A stretch of DNA of 51,097 nt from Paludibacter sp. 221 (lineage in GTDB: Bacteria; Bacteroidota; Bacteroidia; Bacteroidales; Paludibacteraceae): positions 1-51,097 of the forward strand of contig NZ_QVMH01000008.1 in the NCBI RefSeq assembly GCF_010501035.1, given 5' to 3'. The first letter of the stretch is position 1; each line of letters starts with the position of its first letter. The translations under genes and the position numbers were made by a program. Shown here piece after piece: positions 40,888 to 42,795 of the stretch. A model generated the notes under the pieces. That model was not told where the DNA came from and ran no database searches. It saw only the letters and a program-made list of their open reading frames with translations.

Positions 40888-41112
40888 TATTTTTAACTAC
40901 CGAAAACTTTCGACCGCCAAAATGGGTTGTATAGAAATAAAACAAGTACAGCTTTTGCTTATTAACAATTATCAAAAAAAAATTAAATATGTAGCTTCTA
41001 TAGTTTTTTATTACATTTGCGGCTTTAATTTTGGCAACAGAGTATAATAATTAGTAGAAAAACATTATCTTTAAAAGCAAAAAGCCTATTTAAAAAAATA
41101 CGGAAAAAGAAA

Positions 41113-41186: not shown

Positions 41187-41570
41187 ATGTCAGAAGAAAG
41201 AACAAGATATTCGGATGCTGAATTAGAAGAATTCCGTCAAATCATAAACGAAAAACTGGATAAAGCACAAAAAGACTACGAGCAACTAAGAAAAAGCCTG
41301 AATAATCTGGATGGAAACGATGTTGCCGATACTTCGCCGACATTCAAAGTATTGGAAGAAGGCGCAGCCACTCTGTCGAAAGAAGAGGCCGGACGGTTGG
41401 CACAACGTCAGATGAAATTCATTCAGCACTTGCAAGCTGCTTTGATTCGTATCGAAAACAAAACATACGGAATTTGCCGCGAAACAGGCAAATTAATTCC
41501 GAAAGAACGCCTGCGTGCCGTGCCACATGCCACACTAAGCATCGAGGCAAAACAGGGAGAAAAGAAATAA
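41187..41570 (+). CDS. TraR/DksA family protein with degenerate zinc finger
   Basis: This 127-residue protein has an N-terminal coiled coil (about residues 10-90) and a C-terminal TraR/DksA-type segment YGICRETGKLIPKERL. DksA-like proteins enter the RNA polymerase secondary channel and adjust transcription with ppGpp. Only one cysteine of the usual four-cysteine zinc finger remains (C97), which I know to be the rule in Bacteroidetes homologues. The gene has its own promoter and a strong Shine-Dalgarno. It stands before lspA, as is common in the phylum, but an inserted DGR-like sequence separates its stop from its terminator. Confidence 0.9.
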   Translation: MSEERTRYSDAELEEFRQIINEKLDKAQKDYEQLRKSLNNLDGNDVADTSPTFKVLEEGAATLSKEEAGRLAQRQMKFIQHLQAALIRIENKTYGICRETGKLIPKERLRAVPHATLSIEAKQGEKK

Positions 41571-41587: not shown

Positions 41588-41790
41588 ATTTGCCCGCCGC
41601 CGGCAACCGCAACAACGGTAATGGCGAGCTCTACAACGTAGGGTCTGGAGGCAACTACTGGAGTGGTAGCCTTAGCAGTACGTACTCGCTCAACCTGAAC
41701 TTCAATGGTAGTAACGTGTACCCTGCGAACCTGAACAACCGTGCGAACGGCTTAAGTGTACGGTGTATCTCAGCACTTAACGGTAAACTT
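41588..41790 (+). pseudogene. Orphan fragment encoding the end of a C-type-lectin-like domain (DGR variable-repeat-like)
   Basis: In frame from 41590 the sequence encodes LPAAGNRNNGNGELYNVGS, then GGNYWSGS, LNLNFNGSNVYPAN and NRANGLSVRC, the C-terminal end of Fib_succ_major/FGE-type domains that carry the variable region in Bacteroidetes DGRs. It uses 13 AAC and only 2 AAT codons, plus many NNC codons (TAC, GGC, CTC, CGC, AGC), as expected when adenines of AAC codons are mutated. The N-terminal part of such a domain is missing, there is no start site, and no reverse transcriptase or second repeat is in the window. It lies between the traR stop and its terminator. It is a decayed target, an isolated variable repeat, or a template repeat. 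Confidence 0.65.
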
Positions 41791-41795
41791 TTTTT

Positions 41796-41840
41796 ATTTG
41801 TCCCTGTACTATAACATATGTAGCACAGGGGCAAATTTTG
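41796..41840 (+). terminator. Terminator of the traR unit
   Basis: ATTTGTCCCTGT (41796-41807) pairs with ACAGGGGCAAAT (41825-41836) over 12 bp with one G-T pair, followed by TTTTG. It lies after the DGR-like fragment, so the fragment is transcribed as part of the traR 3' end. Confidence 0.7.
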
Positions 41841-42183
41841 TTTCAATACCTTAGATACTACATGCAGCAAAAATACACCTGATTATCAATAATTTATCAT
41901 GAATATGTCATAAATTGCTCATTTACAGCAACTTCAAGAGACTGCAATTGTAAACACCTGATAGCCAGACATAAAAAAACCTACTAAACACAAACCCTAC
42001 TAAATATTATGTAGACCTTTTGTCACTCAATTCGATGTGTTCGAATTAAGAATTCACAAAATATTAATCCTAAATCTTAAAAGCCTGCCCGAGAAAGTAA
42101 AAAACTTTTTATCTTTGCGTTTTTCAACAATATTGTGTACTAAACAGAAGTAATTTCATTTTCCCCCGATAGAACAAAGCCCC
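41841..42183. other. Intergenic region before lspA
   Basis: It holds the lspA -7 box and a 7-bp hairpin around AATTCGATGTGTTCGAATT near 42030-42050. No coding sequence is evident. Confidence 0.4.
42110..42117 (+). promoter_or_regulatory. -7 element of the lspA promoter
   Basis: TATCTTTG matches TAnnTTTG; the -33 region is weak. The leader would be about 60 bases. Confidence 0.5.
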
Positions 42184-42795
42184 ATGTCGACAAAATTAAA
42201 ATCCATCTTACTGATACTTATCATCCTTATCATCGATCAGGTTTCGAAGATATATATAAAACTAAACTTTGCAATCGGGGACTATGTAGAGGTCTTTAAA
42301 TGGTTTCAGATATACTTTATCGAAAACAACGGGATGGCTTTCGGGATGGAATTTGGAGGCAAACTATTCCTGACCCTTTTCAGGATAGTAGCTGTAGGAT
42401 TCTTGATTTATTACATACATATTCTTATTAAGAAAAAAGAACGGACAGGCTATATACTCACCATTTCGCTACTGATGGCGGGTGCTGCCGGAAACATATT
42501 CGATTCGGTTTTTTACGGCGTTCTGTTTAGCGAAAGTACGCCTTGGCAAATAGCTACCTTTTTGCCCGAAGGCGGCGGATATGCATCGCTGTTTCATGGC
42601 AAAGTAGTAGATATGCTTTATTTCCCCATTATAAAAAATGCTGCGGGAGAAACCATATTTTTTAGCCCTATCTTCAACATAGCCGATTCGGCCATTACAG
42701 TAGCCGTACTACTTATTCTTATATTCTTCAGAAAAGACCTGAATAATAGTATGGAAAAGGCTCCAAAACAAAAGAAGACAGAAGAAGCTCAATAA
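42184..42795 (+). CDS. lspA: Lipoprotein signal peptidase (signal peptidase II)
   Basis: This 203-residue inner-membrane aspartic protease removes signal peptides from prolipoproteins. Four hydrophobic segments are visible. The catalytic aspartates are D107 in GNIFDS and D168 in FNIADS. The IENNGMAFGM block near residues 46-55 is the conserved periplasmic loop. An insertion of about 50 residues between the two aspartates (130-165), common in Bacteroidetes, makes it longer than the E. coli enzyme. It is followed 33 bases later by a DUF4296 lipoprotein gene, itself a likely substrate. Confidence 0.95.
   Translation: MSTKLKSILLILIILIIDQVSKIYIKLNFAIGDYVEVFKWFQIYFIENNGMAFGMEFGGKLFLTLFRIVAVGFLIYYIHILIKKKERTGYILTISLLMAGAAGNIFDSVFYGVLFSESTPWQIATFLPEGGGYASLFHGKVVDMLYFPIIKNAAGETIFFSPIFNIADSAITVAVLLILIFFRKDLNNSMEKAPKQKKTEEAQ

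Follow-up and report, generated by a model that had tools for sequence, protein, structure and literature searches.

The window analyzed here, 51,097 nucleotides in all, comprises positions 1–51097 of contig C91 in the draft genome of Paludibacter sp. 221 (3.1 Mb in 102 contigs, 99.8% complete). On the forward strand it carries a traR/dksA-family ORF at 41187–41570, encoding a 127-amino-acid protein with a C4 zinc finger (zf-dskA_traR, PF01258, 3.2e-10), which was the sole match in a plasmid search. Starting 18–19 nt past the traR stop (41570) is a repeat, referred to in the following as W, whose core at 41589–41773 (forward strand) is common to 31 variable repeats (VRs) and eight arrayed template repeats (TRs) elsewhere in the genome. 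W is flanked on both sides by unique sequence inside an 82-kb contig, and the window contains no N. The downstream neighbour, the lspA ORF (42184–42795, forward strand), lies outside the W module.

When W is read in frame from 41590 to 41785, the translation is a FISUMP/C-type-lectin domain tail, with no gene upstream. The first-pass annotation of this DNA had counted 13 AAC against 2 AAT codons here and had remarked that the rest of the domain is not encoded; both observations were borne out by the in-frame reading. A Pfam search with the fragment alone returned nothing significant. The 179-nt core of W contains 12 AAC trinucleotides and 45 adenines, the highest adenine count of the nine TRs. 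Lacking an in-frame gene upstream, W is a non-coding copy of a variable region, as expected of a template.

The 3′ end of W is likewise of the template type. At 41758–41782 (forward strand) there is an IMH*-like end, where TRs have GTACGGTGTATCTCAG followed directly by CACTTAACG, and VRs instead have CTCAG followed by AATTATAA or similar. Templates and VRs share a stretch ending in GTACGGTGTAT, past which the templates go on with CTCAGCACTTAACG and the VRs terminate at a stop no more than a few codons on. The TR-type junction has exactly nine matches in the genome when up to three mismatches are allowed, namely W and the eight array TRs (T1–T8). It leads into an Sp-like spacer (41774–41845, forward strand), also common to the array TRs and containing a hairpin at 41796–41836 (forward strand; arms 41796–41807 and 41825–41836) of −21.2 kcal/mol (z −5.1). 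Across the nine TRs, 93.8% of the stem cells are paired and five pairs are altered on both sides; in 500 shuffles the covariation score was never matched. Several other DGR loci, too, have inverted repeats located between the TR and the RT. The hairpin had earlier been taken for the terminator of traR, which proved wrong: because all eight array TRs carry the same covarying hairpin, it is the template's own spacer hairpin and, judged by this comparison, part of the template module, and it probably doubles as a terminator. Since the hairpin belongs to the fragment, the module spans about 41589–41840 and not 41588–41790 as originally delimited.

For transcription of W, traR is the probable source. 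A match to the Bacteroidetes −7-like motif TAnnTTTG lies upstream of traR at 41012–41019 (forward strand); it is weak, lacking a −33 TTG, and is one of three matches in a 1.35-kb region where 0.4 are expected, with none from traR to 42110. It is a possible promoter for both traR and W. A scan for consensus promoters and terminators gave a result no better than shuffles, and in that scan nothing resembling a terminator turned up between traR and W. Transcription of W from the traR promoter is plausible on this layout.

The reverse transcriptase cassette and its templates

Two genome searches proposed in the first-pass annotation were run. The search for copies of W, suggested at >80% identity, found 39 further copies at 73–92% identity, far beyond chance, and the search for a DGR reverse transcriptase (RT) found one on contig C7. 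Nine of the 39 copies are also on C7: one VR of a FISUMP target gene and eight tandem TRs. They form part of a DGR cassette outside the window (L021:5153-13002, equivalent to contig C7:45152-53001) that contains the FISUMP target with its VR, a small ORF that matches MutS domain I (7.5e-5), bAvd, T1–T8 and the RT. The RT, 411 amino acids long, is of the DGR type (RVT_1, 1e-16; phrog_1423, 2.9e-96), and its GLPIGNLTSQ motif is common to 10 relatives, most of which adjoin A-specific TR/VR pairs. The bAvd protein is an Avd-type accessory (PF22296, 6e-11; phrog_3206 Avd, 3e-20), scoring 8.8e-14 against NF033474, below that model's cut-off. T1–T8 are non-coding, and each unit consists of a conserved structured leader of ~150 nt, a core and a hairpin; a single N inside the array (L021:6659) shortens the T1 leader. 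An Rfam search of the cassette gave no match. The cassette VR (C7:51657) differs from TR7 by nine A mismatches and no non-A mismatches. By these features, the C7 system is identified as a DGR with eight tandem templates.

The earlier remark that the window holds no RT was confirmed among the window ORFs examined, both RTs of the genome lying elsewhere (C7 and C102). The second, on contig C102 (L049:1300-2295), has 331 amino acids, a PIGNYLSQ motif and a phrog_1423 match; it adjoins small ORFs, one of which matches a phage protein family of unknown function, and the locus is possibly a prophage DGR.

The 30 dispersed copies outside the window and C7 are the ends of FISUMP-type ORFs, many of them close to contig ends, and the genome has 31 VR-bearing FISUMP genes or gene ends. 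All 31 VR-type copies are in an open frame, with a stop 186–189 nt past the copy start. One copy (C5:89800-89984, L033) ends a short ORF of 178 amino acids that is not of the usual FISUMP family and has different neighbours.

W does not adjoin the RT gene, and we call it an orphan because the RT is on contig C7 and W on C91. A TR beside the RT gene is usual in known DGRs, but is not demanded by the mechanism. W differs from each of the other TRs at 20 or more positions and has its own hairpin sequence. It is also without the ~150-nt structured leader found before the array TRs, which may mean that its RNA is produced or processed in another way.

W as a donor of variable-repeat segments

The adenine test suggested at the outset showed that VRs depart from W at W adenines in W-derived tracts, and in one direction. 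Tracts of at least 40 nt were scored in which W and a VR mismatch solely at one template base. There were 15 A-only tracts in 14 VRs, compared with 0, 1 and 0 for the C, G and T controls, and none when the roles were reversed and the VR was treated as the template. The relation of W to the VRs is adenine-specific and runs one way, as from a template to its targets. Because the strictly diagnostic non-A bases of W amount to one position, found in three VRs, joint tracts were used to separate W from the other TRs. Eleven exclusive W tracts, to which each of the other TRs has two or more non-A mismatches, were found in 11 VRs, a higher count than for any array TR. The best are the tract in C62, which extends over 116 nt with seven A changes and at least seven non-A mismatches to the other TRs, and that in C27, 95 nt long, with at least eight non-A mismatches to the other TRs. 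On this evidence, segments of W are present in at least 11–14 scattered FISUMP target genes, in tracts altered at W adenines only.

A painting model, in which VRs are rebuilt from templates with adenine-specific error, gave the same picture. Adding W to the array TRs brought a mean gain of 7.7, the best of 32 candidates (the next reached 4.4), and in a leave-one-out analysis over the nine TRs the largest loss followed removal of W. W painted 26% of VR positions. Within these segments, 104 of 416 adenines were changed (25%), compared with 31 of 429 C, 21 of 426 G and 9 of 358 T; the adenine changes were spread over A>G (38), A>T (33) and A>C (33). The segments also hold some non-A changes, mostly C>T, which fit the donor reading less well.

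For 30 of the 31 VRs, a multi-template mosaic was better than the best single template by 6–58 log units, a mosaic advantage that reached at most 5 log units in 600 simulated single-template VRs. The C39 mosaic, for example, has four segments (T7, T1, W and T5) with eight A changes and no non-A changes. Repeated partial replacement with cDNAs from different templates would explain these mosaics. Alternatively, few retrohoming events might have been followed by ordinary gene conversion among the targets, without repeated multi-template use. This alternative bears only on the last step of the mechanism proposed below and is compatible with W as a donor. Homology for conversion is provided by the 31 paralogous VRs, and the more diverged VRs are rich in non-A differences. 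However, several mosaics combine 0–1 non-A changes with many A changes spread over segments (C39 above, and C53, with 1 non-A and 10 A changes), a pattern that copying of the segments from templates would predict, and W remains the original donor even so. We regard gene conversion as a somewhat unlikely source of the mosaics as a whole; conversion between target genes may add to them.

Orphan templates in Alistipes and absence from congeners

A second case was found in Alistipes muris DSM 112343, whose single target VR (L217) is accompanied by eight array TRs and a dozen further dispersed copies, most of them non-coding. One solo copy (L208:1501-1718) is on another contig than the target VR, far from the RT, and matches it over 144 nt with 12 A mismatches and no non-A mismatches; over those 144 nt, all other A. 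muris copies show 13 or more non-A mismatches. The A. muris locus is free of N. The site of the solo copy is kept in a second Alistipes species, where the copy is 93% identical with 40 of its 42 adenines retained and the flanks are about 90% identical. From ORF reading, it adjoins a candidate gene for a small ATPase K-type subunit. As far as sequence can tell, A. muris is an independent replicate of an orphan template acting as a donor.

In an A. senegalensis MAG, the 3′ core motif had 50 matches, 49 of them exact. Among the 30 examined for context, one was of VR type, about 11 were in an array and the rest were dispersed and template-type; the VR of the sole VR-type copy is masked by N. When array and solo copies were compared, A-only tracts did not exceed the C and T controls, and no donor was assigned in this MAG. 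About 37 copies lie outside the array in this 2-Mb MAG (L230–L259, L265–L284), template-type where checked. Two cores from distant loci, L250 and L256, have four differences in the aligned stretch, a near-identity that suggests recent copying.

The first-pass annotation had also singled out the traR–lspA interval for comparison; in all three congeners examined, the sequence behind traR is unrelated and W is absent, and a search of these three genomes for the RT gave no match at E 1e-40. RT-bearing relatives in the family mostly have a single TR with A-only mismatches. Six same-family DGRs (L083, L085, L086, L088, L091 and L093) resemble the Paludibacter system in having related RTs (36–53% identical) and A-specific TR/VR pairs, but have one TR beside the RT, with no array or orphan in the loci examined.

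Probable template use in trans

In our interpretation, W is very probably an orphan DGR TR with its hairpin and spacer, lying in the traR 3′ UTR and serving the C7 RT and bAvd in trans. The template set comprises nine members, eight in tandem and one orphan. Read-through from the traR promoter would yield a W RNA ending at the W hairpin; once bound to the spacer, the RT and bAvd would copy the TR with errors opposite its adenines; the cDNA would then substitute part of a VR, up to the common 3′ end; and repeated partial replacement from nine templates would produce the mosaic structure of 30 of the 31 VRs.

W might instead be an inactive duplicate of an array TR, the W-like VR segments having come from a near-identical TR in the array gap or one since lost. 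A missing W-like array TR is possible because of the N at L021:6659, and the lack of a leader and the absence of W from the three congeners fit such a reading. Nevertheless, there is no second W-like TR in the assembly, W has the most adenines of the nine TRs (45) and an intact covarying hairpin, and the A. muris orphan is a donor although the array locus there has no N, all of which makes an inactive duplicate improbable. A misjoin that placed an array TR behind traR in the 102-contig draft is conceivable, since repeats confuse assembly and many VR copies are found close to the ends of contigs, but with its 20 or more differences from every other TR, its own hairpin, its lack of a leader and its junctions to unique sequence on both sides in an 82-kb contig, in a window without N, W is very improbable as a chimera. 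Finally, a stranded VR or the eroded tail of an ordinary FISUMP gene, as the in-frame domain tail might suggest, is ruled out by the junction and direction tests: the 3′ end is TR-type and not VR-type, the adenines are intact and the sequence AAC-rich, change runs from W to VR and not the reverse, and all 31 VR-type copies keep the open frame with its stop at 186–189 nt. Of the options raised at the outset, the template repeat is thus the one singled out by the RT, junction and adenine tests, and the stranded VR falls away.

The usual picture of a DGR is one template beside one enzyme. The Bordetella phage BPP-1 DGR shares with the Paludibacter system an RT with Avd, adenine-specific mutagenic retrohoming, a structured spacer after the TR and a directional TR/VR difference at the 3′ junction (PMC12875486). 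However, BPP-1 has a single TR between avd and brt, whereas in Paludibacter there are 31 VR copies, and the eight tandem TRs are joined by an orphan that lies on a different contig. In Thiohalocapsa PB-PSB1, where the TR of DGR 2 is matched by VRs at loci 4 and 5, the authors inferred that DGR 2 acts through its components in trans (PMC10907252). There, too, the components encoded at one locus serve to diversify targets in other parts of the genome; in Paludibacter, it is the template itself that is apart from the RT. The MetaCSST survey includes DGRs that, like ours, have more than one TR, such as Stenotrophomonas sp. SKA14 with two TRs and six VRs, and a six-TR example with few A-to-N changes; the portions of that account on which we draw describe no tandem arrays, orphan TRs or multi-TR VRs (PMC6642488). 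Our search of the open-licence literature turned up no description of TR arrays or orphan TRs, and nothing beyond passing mention of multi-TR DGRs.

Tentatively, some DGRs might use a distributed template library, made up of a tandem array and orphan TRs scattered over the chromosome in 3′ UTRs or intergenic regions, from all of which one RT combines adenine-mutated segments. The siting of the orphans, behind traR here and beside an ATPase subunit gene in Alistipes, could give individual templates their own transcriptional control. Were it possible for templates to be detached, multiplied and mixed, lectin-like surface proteins would gain combinatorial as well as point diversity, template choice could be regulated apart from the enzyme, and searches confined to the RT neighbourhood would miss templates. 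The A. muris orphan comes from an isolate (DSM 112343), so that the idea could be tested in a culturable strain.

A wider survey covered 80 further RT loci; the comparison is limited because one genome per species was sampled. Array-like tandem TRs upstream of the RT were seen in Rikenella, Alistipes, Dysgonamonadaceae, Bacteroides reticulotermitis and some proteobacterial MAGs, close examination of such loci outside Paludibacter covering Alistipes. Between two and more than 10 tandem or repeated template-like units lie upstream of DGR-type RTs in Rikenella (L117, L137), Dysgonamonadaceae (L109) and Bacteroides reticulotermitis (L158), as well as in L147, L157 and L170, which are MAGs and a scaffold labelled proteobacterial.
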